Positions 52,640 through 59,763 of a stretch of DNA of 64,000 nucleotides are shown one piece after another. The notes beneath the pieces were generated by a model. The model saw nothing but the letters and a program-made list of their open reading frames with translations, did no database searches and was not told the DNA's origin. This stretch comes from Antricoccus suffuscus. Lineage in GTDB: Bacteria; Actinomycetota; Actinomycetes; Mycobacteriales; Antricoccaceae. A program made the translations under genes and the position numbers. Within the stretch, counting starts at the first letter, position 1. Each line of letters starts with the position of its first letter. The stretch is from contig NZ_PVUE01000006.1 of assembly GCF_003003235.1 (NCBI RefSeq), positions 124,001 through 188,000 on the forward strand, given 5' to 3'.

Positions 52640-53902
52640 TCAGGGTGTAATCGCCGCTGGCGCGACCGCCTCAGCAACGACTTCTTCTTTGAATTCGGTG
52701 GCCTTGCCGGCGAGCGACATGACCGCAGCGCCACACACCGACAGGGCACCGGCGACGAGGTAGGGCACCTTATAGTTGCCAGTCAAGTCGTATAGCCAGC
52801 CGAGCAGGAACGGTCCCCCTGCCGTACCAACGACGACAATCAGCTGCGACACGCTGAAGATTCGCCCGTAGTCGCGTACGCCGAACCGGTGGCCGATCAG
52901 CACCGACTGCAATAGCAGGACGTTGCCGACGGTCGCGCCGAAGACCACGATCGTGCCGAACAGCGCCCAGGCACCGTAGGCAAATGCCATCACCACCAAC
53001 GACGCGCCCTGCAGGATCCCGAGGACGATCGTGAAGCCGGTCATCGGCACGCGATGCACAATTCGTCCGGCCGCAAGACGTGCGATCACAGACATTCCCG
53101 CTAATACCAGCGTCGCGAACGACGCTGCGACAGCGCCGGTTCGCTCTTCCGCGAGCTTGACTATTTGCTGTAGTCCGCCGACCTGCGCGGCCATCATCAG
53201 CACATACGCAATTGCCATTGCGATGAAGAAGCGGGATCGGACCGCGGTAGCGTATGCCTCTCCGGTCGGCGGCGGGGGCGTGATGTCACGCTCGACGCGC
53301 GCGCCGTCAGGCAGCCAGCCCATCGGCTGTGGCGCCGGCTTGATCATGAAGATGATGACCGGGACAGTTCCGAGCAGCCAAATGACCGCCAGGATCGGTG
53401 AGGCCGTCCCGAGGCCGACTGAGTCGGACAGCCACTTCGCGATCGGGGTGAACACCATGCCACCAACGGACAACCCGGTCGAAGCGACGGAAAGCGCGAC
53501 CGCACGACCGGTCTGATACCAGCGGGTGACGACCGTGGTCGTGGGGATCAGGCCCGACGCGGCGAAACCGAACGCGAAGATGATGTAAATGGCGTACAGC
53601 TGCCATATCTCGTGCGCCTGCCCGAGTAAGGCAAGCGCAACCGCACCGACGATAGCGCCGACCACCATGACCTTGCGGGCATCGATGCGGTCGATTAGCT
53701 TCGCCACGAGCAGCCCGAGGATGCCCGACGTCACGAAGAACACCGTCGTCGCGAGCGAGATCGACGACAACGACCAACCGCGTTCGTTGCTGAACGCGTT
53801 GAGGTACACCGCGAGCCCGTAGAAACACAGTCCGGACGTCGTCGTCAGTGAAATAAAACAGCCGGCAACAACCATCCGCCCCGGAAACCGCTCATTAGCC
53901 AC
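52640..53902 (-). CDS. MFS transporter, OFA/monocarboxylate-like (copy A)
   Basis: A 420-residue major facilitator with ~12 hydrophobic segments. It opens FPGRMVVAGCFISLTTTSGL, then YGLAVYLNAFSNERGWSLSS, a pattern of oxalate/formate or monocarboxylate antiporters. The GTG at 53902 is chosen because its paralogue at 55362 starts at the matching place. It is strikingly similar to that paralogue along the whole length, with the same segments GFAASGLIPTTTVVTRWYQ and VRDYGRIFSVSQLIVVVGTA. Its ~70-base promoter region is shared with the divergent DUF2252 gene. The substrate is unknown. Confidence 0.9.
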   Translation of the reverse strand: MANERFPGRMVVAGCFISLTTTSGLCFYGLAVYLNAFSNERGWSLSSISLATTVFFVTSGILGLLVAKLIDRIDARKVMVVGAIVGAVALALLGQAHEIWQLYAIYIIFAFGFAASGLIPTTTVVTRWYQTGRAVALSVASTGLSVGGMVFTPIAKWLSDSVGLGTASPILAVIWLLGTVPVIIFMIKPAPQPMGWLPDGARVERDITPPPPTGEAYATAVRSRFFIAMAIAYVLMMAAQVGGLQQIVKLAEERTGAVAASFATLVLAGMSVIARLAAGRIVHRVPMTGFTIVLGILQGASLVVMAFAYGAWALFGTIVVFGATVGNVLLLQSVLIGHRFGVRDYGRIFSVSQLIVVVGTAGGPFLLGWLYDLTGNYKVPYLVAGALSVCGAAVMSLAGKATEFKEEVVAEAVAPAAITP

Positions 53903-53973
53903 GATTCGGGACTCTATCGGCAAAGCGAAGGACGTCGTACCGTGGGCATACAACTTTGTACGGGGGGTCCTTT

Positions 53974-55365
53974 GTGAACGCTTCTGTGGGCAGACTCCGG
54001 TTCGAGCATGAACACGTGGTGACGTACGACGAACTCATCGAGCAGGGTATCGCCGCGCGCACCAGGGTTCCGCGCAGTGCGCACCGGGTCTATACGCCGG
54101 ATCCAAAGCGCGACCCGCTGGGCATCCTGGCCCGGCAGCACGAGAGCCGGCTCCCCGACTTAGTCCCGCTGCGCATTGAGCGGATGCTTCAGGACCCATT
54201 TTCCTTCTATCGAGGCACCGCGGCCCTCCAGGCCGCCGACCTGGCCACCGAAACGGTCACCGGCGTCAACCTGTGTATTTGCGGTGACGCGCATATAGCC
54301 AACTTCGGCCTGTTTGCCTCACCACAACGCACGATGGTGTTTGACCTTAACGACTTCGACGAGGCCGCTTTCGGCCCGTGGGAATGGGACGTAAAGCGCT
54401 TCGTCACCAGCGTCATCATCGCCGCCCAGCACAAGGGCAGAAGCGTCAAACAGACCTACGCGACCGCGATGCACGCGGCCGCCGCATACCGCGTCGACTT
54501 GCGCCAGATGTTTGACCTCAGCGCGGTTGAGCGTTACTACGTGCGCGCCGACGTCAAGGCAAGTGACCCGCGATTCCACCCGTCGTGGCAAAAAGTTATC
54601 AATCAAGCGCTGAAGGGTGCAAAACGACGTACCTCTGAGCGGGCGATCAGGAAGATCACTCGCCGTGCCGCGGACGGAACGCTCACCATCGTCGAAGACC
54701 CACCCACCCTCATGCACGCCGACGTCGGCGACGAGCGCGAAGTAGCGCAGATTGTTGACCAGTACCGCGCGACCTTGCCACCCGATGTCTCGGTCCTGCT
54801 GTCCCAGTACACCGCCACCGATGTCGTACGACGCGTTGTCGGCGTCGGCAGTGTCGGCACGCGTTGCTACATCGTCGTCATGACCGGCGCGCGCGGTGAA
54901 CCACTTGTGTTACAGGTTAAAGAGGCCACCGACTCCGCGCTCACTACGTTTGGCGTCGCGCCGGCATCGCTTCCACCCGGGACGCATGGGCCGACCGATC
55001 ACAACGGGTACCGCGTGGTGGCGAATCAACGCATTTTGCAGGCGGTGTCTGATCCGTTTCTCGGCTACATCGAGGTTCATGAGCACACCTATTACGTGCG
55101 GCAGTTCCGCGACGGCAACGTCTCCATCGACGCGGCCGACCTCGAACCAAGGGTATTCAACGAGTATGTGGAGGCCTGTGGCACTGCGCTCGCACGTGCC
55201 CACTCTCAAAGCCCGAATGCCGCGTTTATCGCCGGCTACCTCGGCGATAAACCTAAGTTCGACGAGGCCGTCGTGCGGTGGGGTTTGGCCTACGCGCGCC
55301 AGTCGAACGAGGATTATCACGCGCTGCGTAAGGCATCACCGACGCTGCACGAACGTGACAGCTAA
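53974..55365 (+). CDS. DUF2252 family protein
   Basis: A 463-residue protein of the DUF2252 family, related to the protein-kinase-like/aminoglycoside phosphotransferase fold. It has RIERMLQDPFSFYRGTAAL, LCICGDAHIANFGLFASPQR (the GDxHxxNF catalytic-loop-like motif) and VFDLNDFDEAAFGPWEWDVK (a metal-binding DFD-like motif). YYVRQFRDGNVSI is near the C-terminus. The reaction is unknown; small-molecule phosphotransfer is suggested by the motifs. GTG at 53974 follows GGGGGG. It lies between two paralogous MFS genes and overlaps the end of the second by 4 bases. Confidence 0.9.
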   Translation: MNASVGRLRFEHEHVVTYDELIEQGIAARTRVPRSAHRVYTPDPKRDPLGILARQHESRLPDLVPLRIERMLQDPFSFYRGTAALQAADLATETVTGVNLCICGDAHIANFGLFASPQRTMVFDLNDFDEAAFGPWEWDVKRFVTSVIIAAQHKGRSVKQTYATAMHAAAAYRVDLRQMFDLSAVERYYVRADVKASDPRFHPSWQKVINQALKGAKRRTSERAIRKITRRAADGTLTIVEDPPTLMHADVGDEREVAQIVDQYRATLPPDVSVLLSQYTATDVVRRVVGVGSVGTRCYIVVMTGARGEPLVLQVKEATDSALTTFGVAPASLPPGTHGPTDHNGYRVVANQRILQAVSDPFLGYIEVHEHTYYVRQFRDGNVSIDAADLEPRVFNEYVEACGTALARAHSQSPNAAFIAGYLGDKPKFDEAVVRWGLAYARQSNEDYHALRKASPTLHERDS

Positions 55366-56627
55366 CCGCCTTCGTTACCGGCGACGGGGAGTTCGGATGC
55401 CATCGCGTCGTCGCGATATTCGGTGGCCCGGCCAGCCAGCGACATGACTACGGCGCCGGATACCGACAGCGCGCCCGCGATGATGTACGGCACCTCGTAA
55501 CTACCGGTCACGTCGTACAGCCAGCCCAGCAGGAACGGACCGCCCGCCGTACCGACGACTACGAACAACCTGGACACGCTGAACAGGCGCCCGTAGTCGC
55601 GTACGCCGAAATGGTGCCCGATCAGCACCGACTGCATCAGCACGATATTGCCGATAGTCGCGCCGAATACCAGGATCGTTCCGAACAGTGCCCAGGTCCA
55701 ATAGGAAAATGCCATGAGGACCAGCGAGGCGCCTTGGGTGAGTCCAAGCCCAACGGCGAATGCAGTCATCGGCAGTCGATTGACCATCCGGCCGCCTGCG
55801 AGCCGGGCCACCACGGACATCGCGGCGACGGCGAACGTCGCGAACGCGGCCGCAACCGGACCAGCGCGTTCTTGGGTCAGCTTCACGATCTGCTGAAGGC
55901 CGCCGACCTGCGCCGCCATGATCAGCACGTAGGCGACGGTCATCGAGCGGAAGAACCGCGACCGCCAAGCAGTCGCGAATAGTTCACCGGTGGGCGCCGG
56001 CGGCACGACGTTGCGTTCGACGTGCGCACCGTCCGGTAACCACCCCATCGCCTGCGGTGCAGGTTTGATCATGAATACGATGACCGGCACCGTGCCGACC
56101 AACCAGACAATGGCCAGGATCGGCGAGGCCTTGGCGAGACCGACGGCGTCGGACAGCCATTTCGCGATCGGCGTGAGCACCATGCCCCCGACCGACAGGC
56201 CGGTGGACGTGACGGCGAGCGCGACCGCCCGACCGCTTTGATACCAGCGAGTGACGACCGTCGTAGTCGGTATCAGGCCAGCGGCCCCGAACCCAAACGC
56301 GAAGACCGCGTAGATGAGATAGAGCTGCCACCGCTCGTGCGCCTGGCCGAGTAACGCAAGCGCGACCGCTCCGACGATCGCGCCGGCCACCATGACTCGC
56401 CGCGCATCGAAGCGTGCGATCAGTTTCGCGACGAAATAGCCGAGGACGCCCGAGGACACGAAGAACACCGTGCTCGCAAGCGAGATCGACGACAGCGACC
56501 AGCCGCGCTCGTTGCTGAACGCGTTCAGGTACACGGCGAGCCCATAGAAGGACAGACCCGACGTCGTCATCAAGGTAATGAAGCAGCCAGCAACCACCAT
56601 CCGACCGGGAAATCGCGCAGCAGCCAT
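55362..56627 (-). CDS. MFS transporter, OFA/monocarboxylate-like (copy B)
   Basis: A 421-residue paralogue of the transporter at 52640. The two share long identical blocks, such as YGLAVYLNAFSNERGWSLSS, VMVAGAIVGAVALALLGQAH (close to VMVVGAIVGAV in A) and the whole loop MGWLPDGA. The ATG at 56627 follows AGAGTCCG. It is divergent from the sulfur operon, with its start ~400 bases before that operon's first large gene. It is convergent with the DUF2252 gene. Copy A and copy B point the same way, so the DUF2252 gene sits inverted between them. Confidence 0.9.
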   Translation of the reverse strand: MAAARFPGRMVVAGCFITLMTTSGLSFYGLAVYLNAFSNERGWSLSSISLASTVFFVSSGVLGYFVAKLIARFDARRVMVAGAIVGAVALALLGQAHERWQLYLIYAVFAFGFGAAGLIPTTTVVTRWYQSGRAVALAVTSTGLSVGGMVLTPIAKWLSDAVGLAKASPILAIVWLVGTVPVIVFMIKPAPQAMGWLPDGAHVERNVVPPAPTGELFATAWRSRFFRSMTVAYVLIMAAQVGGLQQIVKLTQERAGPVAAAFATFAVAAMSVVARLAGGRMVNRLPMTAFAVGLGLTQGASLVLMAFSYWTWALFGTILVFGATIGNIVLMQSVLIGHHFGVRDYGRLFSVSRLFVVVGTAGGPFLLGWLYDVTGSYEVPYIIAGALSVSGAVVMSLAGRATEYRDDAMASELPVAGNEGG

Positions 56628-56703: not shown

Positions 56704-56795
56704 CAAGGTTACGAGCCCCAGTGACAAGGTCCGGCTGGCTGGGCAGCAACCCTCGTACTTGCGGCGGGGTGCTCCGGATAACGACCAGGCAGGTC
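56704..56795 (+). promoter_or_regulatory. SAM riboswitch (SAM-I/SAM-IV clan, SAM-IV-like)
   Basis: The leader upstream of the MHS-transporter/monooxygenase operon carries the SAM-IV-type core. GCCCCAG (56714-56720) and CTGGGC form the P2 stem. GCAACCCTC follows, then GCGGCGGGGTGCTCCGG and AACGACC, in the order and with the invariants of SAM-IV aptamers. An extra 3' part (CAGGCAGGTC) would supply the pseudoknot. S-adenosylmethionine binding would reduce expression of the downstream sulfur genes. The exact end and pairing need a covariance search. Confidence 0.82.
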
Positions 56796-56852
56796 TCATC
56801 CGAGTCCCTGCAAGTGCAAGCCCATTGGGCTTCGGTATGTAGGAGTTCCACC

Positions 56853-56873
56853 ATGTCGCGCTGTTGTTGCTGA
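56853..56873 (+). CDS. Poly-cysteine leader peptide (MSRCCC), putative cysteine attenuator
   Basis: A seven-codon ORF: ATG TCG CGC TGT TGT TGC TGA. AGGAG lies seven bases before the ATG, so it should be translated. Three consecutive Cys codons before the stop match the short Cys-rich upstream ORFs known in mycobacteria to act as cysteine-responsive attenuators. Ribosome stalling when Cys-tRNA is scarce would change folding of the structured leader that follows. It sits after the SAM riboswitch and about 155 bases before the MHS gene. Confidence 0.75.
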   Translation: MSRCCC

Positions 56874-56898
56874 CTGAGCTAATCACCATTTAGCGCCT

Positions 56899-56972
56899 GA
56901 CCCGCACCGCGGTACAGGCTATTTCGAGCGCGCCTGCGGCCGCTCGCCACCCCTCGCTCCCCTTCGCGGGTC
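56899..56972 (+). promoter_or_regulatory. Structured leader (possible attenuator) after the poly-Cys ORF
   Basis: GACCCGC (56899-56905) can pair with GCGGGTC (56966-56972), enclosing a GAGCG...CGCTC hairpin (56926-56945, loop TGC). This lies 25 bases after the leader-peptide stop, a plausible place for terminator/antiterminator switching. The rest of the leader to 57028 holds no other gene. Confidence 0.5.
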
Positions 56973-57028
56973 TCTGCACGCTTGCCATTACGTCGGCGGC
57001 GCTACAGGCCTGCCCTGAAAGGAAACTT

Positions 57029-58384
57029 GTGTCCGCACCTGTCTCGACTGCGGCTCCTGTCCGAGTCCGCAATTCCACCCGAAAGGTCGCCGCGGCATCG
57101 TTCGTCGGCACCGCAATCGAGTGGTACGACTTCTACATCTACGGCACCGCCTCGGCGCTTATCCTCGGCCCGCTGTTCTTCCCGGGCGCCAGCGCGTCGG
57201 GCGGCGTGCTCGCCTCCTTCGCGACGTACGCCGTCGGATTCTTGGCCCGCCCGCTCGGCGGTGCGATCGCCGGACACCTCGGTGACCGGATCGGTCGCAA
57301 ACGTGTGCTCGTGGCATCCCTGCTCCTGATGGGAACCGCTACCTTCCTCGTTGGTTTCCTTCCGACCTACGCCACGATCGGCATTGCCGCCCCTCTCCTG
57401 CTAATCCTGCTGCGTCTTCTCCAAGGGCTCTCGGCAGGCAGCGAATGGGGTGGCGCGGTATTGCTTGCGGTCGAACACGCCCCGGCCAAACGACGAGGCT
57501 TGTATGGCGCAATCCCGCAGACCGGCTCGGCCGCGGGCATGATCCTCGCGACCTCGACGTACGCCGGAGTTCAGGCATTGGTCGGTCACGAGGCCTTCCT
57601 GTCCTGGGGTTGGCGGATTCCCTTCATCGCCAGCGCCGTACTCGTCGTCGTCGGATTGATTGTGCGGTTGTCCATCACCGAATCGGCCGAGTTCCTCGCC
57701 CTGCGCGACGAGGACCGCTTGGAGAAGGCGCCCGTCGTCGAGGTGTTCCGGAGCAACTCCCGCGAAGTGCTGCTGGCCGTCGCGATGCGCCTCGGCCAAA
57801 TCGGCTCATTCACCCTCTACACCGTGTTTGCACTGACCTACCTCGCCAACCACGTCCGCGCGGACGGCGCCGACATCGGCCTCGTCGCGACCATTATCGC
57901 GTCGGTGATCGGCCTGGCCAGTACGCCGCTATGGGGCGCCCTATCCGACCGATTAGGACGCCGGCCGGTCTACCTGTTCGGCGCAATCTTCACTGCCGTG
58001 TTCGTCGCTCCGGCCTTCCTGCTGCTCGACACCGGTTCTAGCGTGCTGATCATCGTGACGTTCATCCTCGGCATCAACATCGGACACGACAGCCAGTACG
58101 GCGCGCAGGGAGCGATGTTCTCCGAGCTGTTCCCCACCCAAGTGCGCTACAGCGGCGCCTCACTTGGCTACGCGATTGGCGCCGTACTCGGCGGTGGCTT
58201 GACTCCTCTTGCCGCGGCGTGGCTGCTCGGTGTTGGCGCTAACGCACCGTGGCTTGTGGCGGCGTACATCGCATTCCTGGCAGTACTTTCAGCGACCGGG
58301 GCCTACTTCGCCAAAGAGACCCGACATGTGACCCCTACTCCAACTACGCCCGAATCCCCCAACGAACTGGTAGGTGCCCGATGA
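57029..58384 (+). CDS. MFS transporter, metabolite:H+ symporter (MHS) family
   Basis: A 451-residue 12-TM symporter. The MHS signature is near the N-terminus: ASFVGTAIEWYDFYIYGTAS, then GHLGDRIGRKRVLVASLLLM; later GSEWGGAVLLAVEHAPAKRR and GALSDRLGRRPVYLFGAIF. The family imports small acids or betaine-like solutes. GTG start with GAAAGG upstream. Its stop overlaps the ATG of the monooxygenase gene (ATGA), so it probably imports the organosulfur substrate of that enzyme. It is controlled by the SAM riboswitch and the Cys-leader region. Confidence 0.9.
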   Translation: MSAPVSTAAPVRVRNSTRKVAAASFVGTAIEWYDFYIYGTASALILGPLFFPGASASGGVLASFATYAVGFLARPLGGAIAGHLGDRIGRKRVLVASLLLMGTATFLVGFLPTYATIGIAAPLLLILLRLLQGLSAGSEWGGAVLLAVEHAPAKRRGLYGAIPQTGSAAGMILATSTYAGVQALVGHEAFLSWGWRIPFIASAVLVVVGLIVRLSITESAEFLALRDEDRLEKAPVVEVFRSNSREVLLAVAMRLGQIGSFTLYTVFALTYLANHVRADGADIGLVATIIASVIGLASTPLWGALSDRLGRRPVYLFGAIFTAVFVAPAFLLLDTGSSVLIIVTFILGINIGHDSQYGAQGAMFSELFPTQVRYSGASLGYAIGAVLGGGLTPLAAAWLLGVGANAPWLVAAYIAFLAVLSATGAYFAKETRHVTPTPTTPESPNELVGAR

Positions 58385-59763
58385 ACCGCAAGCTATCCCT
58401 CAACGCATTCGCCATGGCCTGTGTCGGACACCAGTCGCCCGGCCTATGGGCACGCGACGATGATCAAAGCGCCGACTACACGAGCCTCGAACATTGGATC
58501 GACCTGGCGCGCCTCCTTGAGGATGGCGGATTCGACTCGCTGTTCCTCGCCGACGTACTGGGCACGTACGACGTCTACGGCGGGTCCCGTGACGAGGCCG
58601 TCCGGGTGGGCGCTCAGGTGCCGGTCAGCGATCCGATCCCCGCTATATCGGCGATGGCGGCCGCCACCAAGAATCTCGGATTCGGCGTGACGGTGACGAC
58701 GACGTACGAACAGCCCTATGCGCTCGCGCGACGCTTCACCACGCTCGATCACCTCACCAAGGGCCGAATCGGCTGGAACGTCGTCACCGGTTACCTCGAC
58801 TCGGCAGCCAAGAACCTCGGCTTTACCGCGCAGATCCCCCACGACGAACGCTACGAGATCGCCGACGAATACCTTGAGGTCTGCTACAAGCTCTGGGAAC
58901 ACTCGTGGGAGGACGACGCGGTCGTCCGTGACCGTGAGCGCGGCATCTACGCCGACCCGGCGAAGGTGCATGACATAGGCCATCACGGCCAGTACTACGA
59001 CGTACCCGGCGCGTTCCTGTGTGAGCCCTCGCCGCAGCGGACCCCGGTGATTTTCCAGGCCGGCGCGTCACCTAGAGGCCGTCAGTTCGCCGCCAAGCAT
59101 GCTGAGGCAATCTTTGTCATCGGCCCGACTCCGGCTGCTGTGCGGCGTACCACTTCGGCCCTGCGCGAAGAGGCCGAGAAGGCCGGCCGAGATCCATACT
59201 CCATCAAGATCATCGCGGGGCTGACCGCGATCGTGCGTGAATCCGACGAGGAGGCGGCCGACCTTCTGGAAAGCTACCGCCAATCGGCAAGCCTCAGCGG
59301 GGCACTCGCGTTGTTCGGCGGCTGGACAGGGGTCGACCTCGCCGAGTACCCGTACGACGCGCCGCTCGTGCACATCACCACGGACGCGAATCGATCGGCC
59401 CTGGATGCCTTCACGCGCGACGCCGATCATGAGTGGACCGTAGAAGAGTTGGCGCGCTGGGTCAGCATCGGCGGCCGGGGACCCGTCATGGCCGGCTCCC
59501 CCACCACGGTGGCGGACACGCTCGAGGAATGGCAGCAGGAAGCCGACGTCGACGGGTTCAACTTCATGTATGTGACCCGGCCGGGGACCTTCACCGACAT
59601 CGTCACGCACCTGGTGCCGGAGTTACGTCGCCGCGGACTCGTCGCACCAGCGCCGGCTACACCCGCGAGCCTGCGCGAGCGTCTCGGCACCGGCGATGGC
59701 GCGCGGTTATCCGCAGCGCACTACGCGCGCTCGCTGCAGATCGCCGCGCCCACGCCTCGCTGA
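58381..59763 (+). CDS. NtaA/SnaA/DszA-family FMN-dependent monooxygenase
   Basis: A 460-residue luciferase-fold monooxygenase of the DszA/SnaA/NtaA group. It begins with KLSLNAFAMACVGHQSPGLW. WIDLARLLEDGGFDSLFLAD and LGFGVTVTTTYEQPYALARR follow; KGRIGWNVVTGYLDSAAKNL is the group hallmark. PVIFQAGASPRGRQFAAKHA completes the barrel. These two-component enzymes use reduced FMN to split C-S or C-N bonds. Riboswitch control makes an organosulfur compound (sulfone, sulfide or sulfonate) the likely substrate. The ATG at 58381 overlaps the transporter stop. No flavin reductase is adjacent. Confidence 0.92.
   Translation: MNRKLSLNAFAMACVGHQSPGLWARDDDQSADYTSLEHWIDLARLLEDGGFDSLFLADVLGTYDVYGGSRDEAVRVGAQVPVSDPIPAISAMAAATKNLGFGVTVTTTYEQPYALARRFTTLDHLTKGRIGWNVVTGYLDSAAKNLGFTAQIPHDERYEIADEYLEVCYKLWEHSWEDDAVVRDRERGIYADPAKVHDIGHHGQYYDVPGAFLCEPSPQRTPVIFQAGASPRGRQFAAKHAEAIFVIGPTPAAVRRTTSALREEAEKAGRDPYSIKIIAGLTAIVRESDEEAADLLESYRQSASLSGALALFGGWTGVDLAEYPYDAPLVHITTDANRSALDAFTRDADHEWTVEELARWVSIGGRGPVMAGSPTTVADTLEEWQQEADVDGFNFMYVTRPGTFTDIVTHLVPELRRRGLVAPAPATPASLRERLGTGDGARLSAAHYARSLQIAAPTPR

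Follow-up and report, generated by a model that had tools for sequence, protein, structure and literature searches.

Related systems

Riboswitches are usually considered apart from amino-acid leader peptides, the two being seen as distinct devices. Tandem riboswitches act as logic gates, bringing two metabolite signals to bear on one leader. A SAM-IV riboswitch (RF00634) preceding the O-acetylhomoserine sulfhydrylase gene has already been reported in M. avium (PMC3774663), and the cryo-EM structure of SAM-IV places the pseudoknot PK-2 at the 3' end of the aptamer (PMC6890682). In M. smegmatis, Canestrari et al. 2020 established polycysteine ORFs that respond to cysteine, as related in a passage of PMC9031893 in which the mycobacterial polycysteine ORFs are described as leaderless short ORFs. 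A riboswitch and an upstream ORF (uORF) occur together in M. tuberculosis, where, according to the relevant extracts of PMC11260477, a B12 riboswitch and a uORF share the leader of metE and of ppe2 and both affect the gene. By the authors' account, the influence of uORFs associated with riboswitches had not been addressed before; cysteine or amino-acid sensing by these uORFs is not mentioned in those extracts.

In the window analysed here, a stretch of 64,000 nucleotides from Antricoccus suffuscus, a riboswitch and a leader peptide are found in series on one RNA. The locus resembles known SAM-IV systems in its full-length aptamer, in a PK-2 change that keeps pairing and in the sulfur genes downstream; it differs from them in that the first translated frame is a Cys leader peptide rather than a metabolic gene. 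With the mycobacterial polycysteine ORFs (Ms4527A, Ms5788A; NF042933, NF042934, NF042936) the uORF of the window shares its very short length, its consecutive terminal Cys codons and its position upstream of sulfur genes. In related genomes, SAM-IV is followed by longer members of this mycobacterial class too. Unlike the Ms4527A/Ms5788A class, the window uORF has a Shine-Dalgarno sequence (SD), consists of only six codons without the RRHIDL core, and is placed under a riboswitch. Like tandem riboswitches, the leader would integrate two signals, its sensors being an aptamer and a translating ribosome; unlike in tandem riboswitches, the aptamer probably controls the other sensor.

We lean towards reading this leader as a two-signal sulfur device, in which SAM-IV would control translation of the polycysteine peptide and stalling at the Cys codons would control the organosulfur operon behind. 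If this is correct, a single transcript combines the SAM signal with that of charged tRNA-Cys, the length of many SAM-IV leaders is explained, and the design is a simple and testable one in which the aptamer decides whether the ribosome-based sensor is on.

The SAM-IV aptamer

The elements of the leader are as follows.

56707-56822, forward strand: SAM-IV riboswitch aptamer (Rfam RF00634, full length)
56758-56762, forward strand: 5' strand of PK-2, CTTGC, in the P3 loop (compensatory change)
56816-56820, forward strand: 3' strand of PK-2, GCAAG, sharing bases with the next hairpin (compensatory change; cryo-EM precedent)
56818-56832, forward strand: expression-platform hairpin AAGCCC-ATT-GGGCTT, 6 bp (same-position hairpin across SAM-IV leaders)
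56841-56845, forward strand: SD of the leader ORF, AGGAG, 7 nt before the ATG (sequence)
56853-56873, forward strand: leader ORF Met-Ser-Arg-Cys-Cys-Cys-stop (sequence, shuffles, comparative set)

A SAM-IV-like aptamer had been proposed in a first-pass annotation of the sequence, and a covariance search confirms it. RF00634 matches 56707-56822 of the forward strand over model positions 1-116 with 80.8 bits (E 8.3e-13), against a curated Rfam gathering cut-off of 38 bits, and SAM-IV is the sole RNA element from Rfam within the whole window. The PK-2 consensus CCGC:GCGG is replaced by TTGC:GCAA, both sides having changed with the pairing kept. Over 142 leaders, full pairing with their own loop is found in 13 of the 21 SAM-IV tails that depart from the consensus, compared with 7% when the loops are swapped. 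The window aptamer would be expected to bind SAM and to lower expression.

The genome of A. suffuscus contains four SAM-IV aptamers. From the sequence as read by eye, one of the others precedes a cysteine-desulfurase-like gene, one metY, and one a rhodanese-like gene that is followed by a metZ-like gene; no Cys uORF was seen by inspection in two of these three leaders. The genome's own metY leader (L002 / L275, G000 contig 21) has SAM-IV followed by an SD-preceded ORF, V-S-T-L-C-R-stop, apparently the same uORF in a version with a single cysteine.

The polycysteine leader ORF

The codons ATG TCG CGC TGT TGT TGC TGA at 56853-56873 encode the Met-Ser-Arg-Cys-Cys-Cys-stop peptide that the annotation had placed after the aptamer. 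This ORF is not leaderless: 146 nt separate its ATG from the aptamer start, and an SD precedes it. A short SD-preceded ORF with three consecutive Cys codons arose in just 1 of 5000 dinucleotide shuffles of 56819-57028, and in the whole genome (4.68 Mb) the pattern ATGNNNMGNTGYTGYTGYTRR is present once, at this locus. MSRCCC does not match NF042933, NF042934 or NF042936 of NCBIfam, its six residues being too short for these models.

A second M-CCC ORF of the genome, on contig 11, was rejected as a leader, as it sits inside an ABC-F-type ATPase gene. Over 399 genomes of the order, the loose pattern GCAACC..CCAGG..TGYTGY occurred at background level, a reversed-pattern control being about equally frequent. 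A strict pattern with M-x-x-CCC-stop returned the window alone from the 399 genomes and was dropped as too strict, because other leaders read MCCC, MHCCC and so on.

The operon and its orthologue

Behind the leader ORF lie the following features.

56874-57028, forward strand: spacer of 155 nt between leader ORF and transporter (composition, folding)
57018-57025, forward strand: SD of the transporter gene, AAAGGAAA (sequence)
57029-58384, forward strand: MFS metabolite/H+ symporter, shikimate/ProP-like (TIGR00883 1e-122, under its curated cut-off)
58381-59763, forward strand: DmoA-like FMN-dependent monooxygenase of the NtaA/DmoA family (TIGR03860 531 bits, cut-off 279.7)

The stop of the transporter gene and the start of the monooxygenase gene overlap as ATGA. 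The best solved structure for the monooxygenase is the dimethyl-sulfide monooxygenase 6ak1 (E 3.5e-154), DszA (5tlc) giving a weaker match of 6e-74. Thus the transporter of the first-pass annotation stands, and its 'DszA/SnaA-type' monooxygenase is of the DmoA type instead. Activity on dimethyl sulfide is predicted by similarity to 6ak1. Upstream of the leader, two closely similar MFS transporters (52640-53953 and 55362-56627; SfMCT/oxalate-formate-antiporter-like) flank a gene at 53956-55365 and are probably the product of a duplication.

Another genus of the family has the same transporter-monooxygenase pair (G004, L163), its proteins being 73% and 80% identical to those of the window. There, SAM-IV (88.1 bits) lies directly in front of the operon, and the transporter ATG, 36 nt after the aptamer, takes the place that the MSRCCC ATG has in the window. 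L163, the only orthologous SAM-IV leader compared, has no Cys uORF, and SAM-IV is absent from those more distant operons of the order that were compared; the host genus was represented in this comparison by one genome. Since L163 has SAM-IV but carries the transporter ATG at the uORF site, the uORF of the window is lineage-specific. From this sequence comparison SAM-IV is probably the older layer of the operon, to which the Cys uORF would have been added in one lineage. Conservation of the Cys codons, which the annotation had looked to as a check, accordingly fails for the orthologous leader of this operon and holds for other SAM-IV leaders, as set out in the next section.

The orthologue also bears on another history, in which SAM-IV is functional and MSRCCC is the old transporter start, stranded by an insertion of ~176 nt and without any part in cysteine sensing. 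The equivalent position of the orthologous ATG is as this history would have it, no attenuator fold was found (see below), and the insert is present in the genome as a single copy, which also led us to reject its derivation from a repeat. We nevertheless regard a stranded start as improbable: three consecutive Cys codons after a good SD are the 1-in-5000 outcome given above, Cys uORFs recur at this position in many genomes, and the genome has Cys leaders before other organosulfur genes.

Recurrence of the SAM-IV/Cys uORF pair

SAM-IV leaders were sampled from 150 genomes of the order, chosen without regard to cysteine. Most of the stronger matches (~94 bits and above, among the matches listed), together with those of the window's genome, gave 114 leaders; the window aptamer, at 80.8 bits, falls below this ~94-bit range. 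A metY (O-acetylhomoserine sulfhydrylase) gene follows in 33 of the 114. Counted from the aptamer start, 11 of these have metY itself beginning at about +154 to +182, and the remaining 22, the long leaders, have it beyond +200. An SD-preceded Cys uORF is present at about +150 to +215 in 17 of the 22 long leaders, examples being MSRRMCCCRS, VCARMCCRR, MRASLHPLTRCCCR, MCIHQAHSRRFVCRR and VCTSRMCSSR. A stricter SD list again gives 17 of 22 for any Cys (shuffle mean 0.61) and 8 of 22 for CC, for which the shuffle mean is 0.01 and none of 400 shuffles reaches 8, although leaders from one genus are not independent and these enrichment figures therefore overstate the evidence. CC is the commonest homodipeptide in the uORFs of the long metY leaders, and the Cys-uORF cases among the sampled metY leaders span several families. 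Two architectures are thus seen at one SD position, with either the gene starting directly at ~+154-182 or a Cys uORF there and the gene further on, and they match the contrast between the orthologue and the window.

These figures bear on the possibility that the uORF works through translation coupling, re-initiation or Rho protection, as in the B12 cases of M. tuberculosis, with its cysteines incidental. Such a role has a precedent in M. tuberculosis, where, according to the extracts of PMC11260477, downstream expression is modulated by uORFs that lie under B12 riboswitches, but we judge it highly improbable here: cysteine is specifically enriched (CC in 8/22, any Cys in 17/22), and the 155-nt gap makes coupling unlikely.

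A scan of the GTDB collection (~85,000 genomes) for a SAM-IV core and tail with three Cys codons returned 65 stretches, a selection for Cys that makes this number a guide to spread and not to frequency. The Cys codons fall in a short in-frame ORF with an SD start in 39 of the 65, mostly before metY; a recognised metY lies behind the uORF at 33 of the scan loci, and at L178 and L184 additionally by eye. The uORF reads MCCCRR in Rhodococcus, Prescottella and Aldersonia, MCCCP in Mycobacterium, and MCCCCRM or MHCCCTRT in Nanopelagicales and other actinobacterial MAGs. Several matches outside Actinomycetota look like noise.

The pairing of SAM-IV and a Cys uORF on one leader, as proposed in the annotation, therefore recurs elsewhere with its position, SD and cysteines conserved. 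It occurs in many Actinomycetota, including Mycobacterium and Rhodococcus, at the branch point of methionine and cysteine synthesis. The metY leaders are the strongest cases, and the window carries the same design on an organosulfur operon. Dozens of related bacteria have this pair ahead of genes for methionine synthesis, which gives it the look of a genuine two-signal sulfur switch. The annotation had called the arrangement rarely described. It is not rare, being widespread before metY in Actinomycetota; as to its description, we found no published pairing of a SAM-IV or other SAM riboswitch with a leader peptide, uORF or polycysteine ORF in the open-licence literature, an absence that is no proof. 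The leader is real and represents a widespread combination of two known devices that is apparently undescribed. On a broader proposal we are evenly divided, namely that there is an unrecognised, widespread class of actinobacterial leaders in which SAM-IV gates a Cys-sensing peptide, repeatedly placed at the riboswitch's start site, so that metY and operons that scavenge organosulfur would be governed by a hierarchical AND gate requiring low SAM together with low cysteine.

Predicted masking of the uORF start site

A hairpin follows the aptamer in nearly all leaders, its arms varying widely yet remaining complementary (n=109); the mean stem is 6.75, compared with 4.71 in shuffles (p 3e-16, 109 leaders). 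The 5' arm of the hairpin has bases in common with the 3' strand of PK-2. In fold predictions, which leave out the aptamer, proteins and kinetics, the accessibility of the window uORF SD (GGAG) falls from 0.49 with the PK-2 strand free to 0.00 with it blocked, and a change as large is seen in 0 of 40 shuffles. For 39 tandem SAM-IV/uORF leaders, the predicted accessibility falls on blocking from 0.39 to 0.25 (mean shuffled change -0.016, p 0.004), a result that needs independent confirmation because this subset was chosen after the ranked list had been seen. There is no such effect of blocking in 70 non-tandem leaders, and over all 122 SAM-IV leaders it is not significant (p 0.16). Several tandem leaders show no masking, and in L222 the change is strongly in the opposite direction. 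These models suggest that the riboswitch probably acts on the start site of the uORF.

The computations show the aptamer and its PK-2 covariation, the hairpin, the recurrent Cys uORF that is beyond chance, and the predicted masking; to these we add, as inference, SAM binding, a direction of control, stalling and a release of the transporter gene by stalling, in the following manner. With SAM plentiful, PK-2 would hold the 3' tail of the aptamer, leaving the adjacent hairpin incomplete; the SD of the uORF would then be covered and the uORF would go unread. With SAM scarce, the hairpin would form and the uORF would be read. Were charged tRNA-Cys also scarce, ribosomes would stall at Cys-Cys-Cys and the downstream genes would be released, so that the operon would be fully on only with both SAM and cysteine low.

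The annotation had read the leader as two layers. Its aptamer and its Cys uORF, the latter beyond chance, are indeed on one leader, but the predicted SD masking speaks against independent layers: the two are probably not independent, since the site on which the riboswitch seems to act is the start of the uORF itself. Independence would mean that SAM-IV acts on transcription elongation (for example, Rho-dependent) or on message stability and that attenuation of the transporter gene by the Cys uORF is a separate process, sulfur still being sensed by both. We consider this rather unlikely, though it deserves serious weight. The spacer after the uORF is C-rich, with 48% C and 21% G at 56939-56990, Rho is possible since no terminator was found, and the tandem leaders that show no masking are in keeping with it; on the other side, the riboswitch adjoins the first SD, the uORF replaces a directly controlled gene start, and masking is significant in the tandem leaders taken together.

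From the uORF to the transporter gene

The second step of the two-signal reading was sought in the 155-nt spacer, the structure of which is weak (z -0.98). No intrinsic terminator was found in the leader downstream of the uORF, and in the fold model the accessibility of the transporter SD stayed at about 0.45 throughout, irrespective of the position of the stalled ribosome. By eye, the Cys codons showed extended complementarity to a segment preceding the transporter SD; this match is not significant, 17.5% of shuffles being as good. The fold and complementarity analyses thus demonstrated no attenuator structure downstream of the window uORF, and it is by analogy with the M. smegmatis polycysteine ORFs that uORF stalling would control the transporter gene.

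Complementarity of Cys codons and spacer reaches the 5% level in 6 of 44 tandem leaders. These are L049 and L100, of Mycobacterium type, and L185, L194, L222 and L224, from Nanopelagicales or other actinobacterial MAGs; the complementary spacer segment of L049 and L100 is close to the metY SD. A classical attenuator fits these six leaders.

Longer Cys leaders

Peptides of the form RRHIDLxRVSSALCC also follow SAM-IV, RHIDL being found in the sense direction in 10 of 113 leaders and in none of the antisense and reversed controls. These RRHIDL...CC leaders match the NCBIfam leader models NF042934/NF042936. SAM-IV followed by an RRHIDL...C peptide is seen in L131, L142, L127, L103, L121 and L124, from other families of the order. 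Downstream of these peptides lie, among others, genes for a DmoA/NtaA-family monooxygenase (L131 and, by eye, L142), an SsuE-type FMN reductase (L127) and ABC permeases, that of L124 being an amino-acid ABC permease; this cargo is of the same kind as that of the window operon.

The window's genome has three further Cys leaders, of SRRAIDLMRAxTxxCC type, which give weak matches to the NCBIfam leader models.

L281, G000 contig 3, 128129-128182: Cys leader peptide SRRAIDLMRACTCTCCR, before a flavin-reductase-like gene
L282, G000 contig 1, 470098-470133: Cys leader peptide SRRAVDLMRFCSDRCC, before sfnG (dimethylsulfone monooxygenase)
L283, G000 contig 3, 125069-125122: Cys leader peptide SRRAIDLMRASTSACCC, before an ABC substrate-binding protein

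Two observations concern the metY leaders. Among L189-L242, the polycysteine uORFs of GC-rich Rhodococcus and Mycobacterium use mostly TGT rather than TGC, a preference for which an RNA-level or decoding constraint is a possible cause. L061, from a Mycobacterium-type family, contains between +160 and +290 a CCRWCRC stretch that is out of frame with an SD-preceded ATG and is possibly a decayed or frameshifted Cys uORF.
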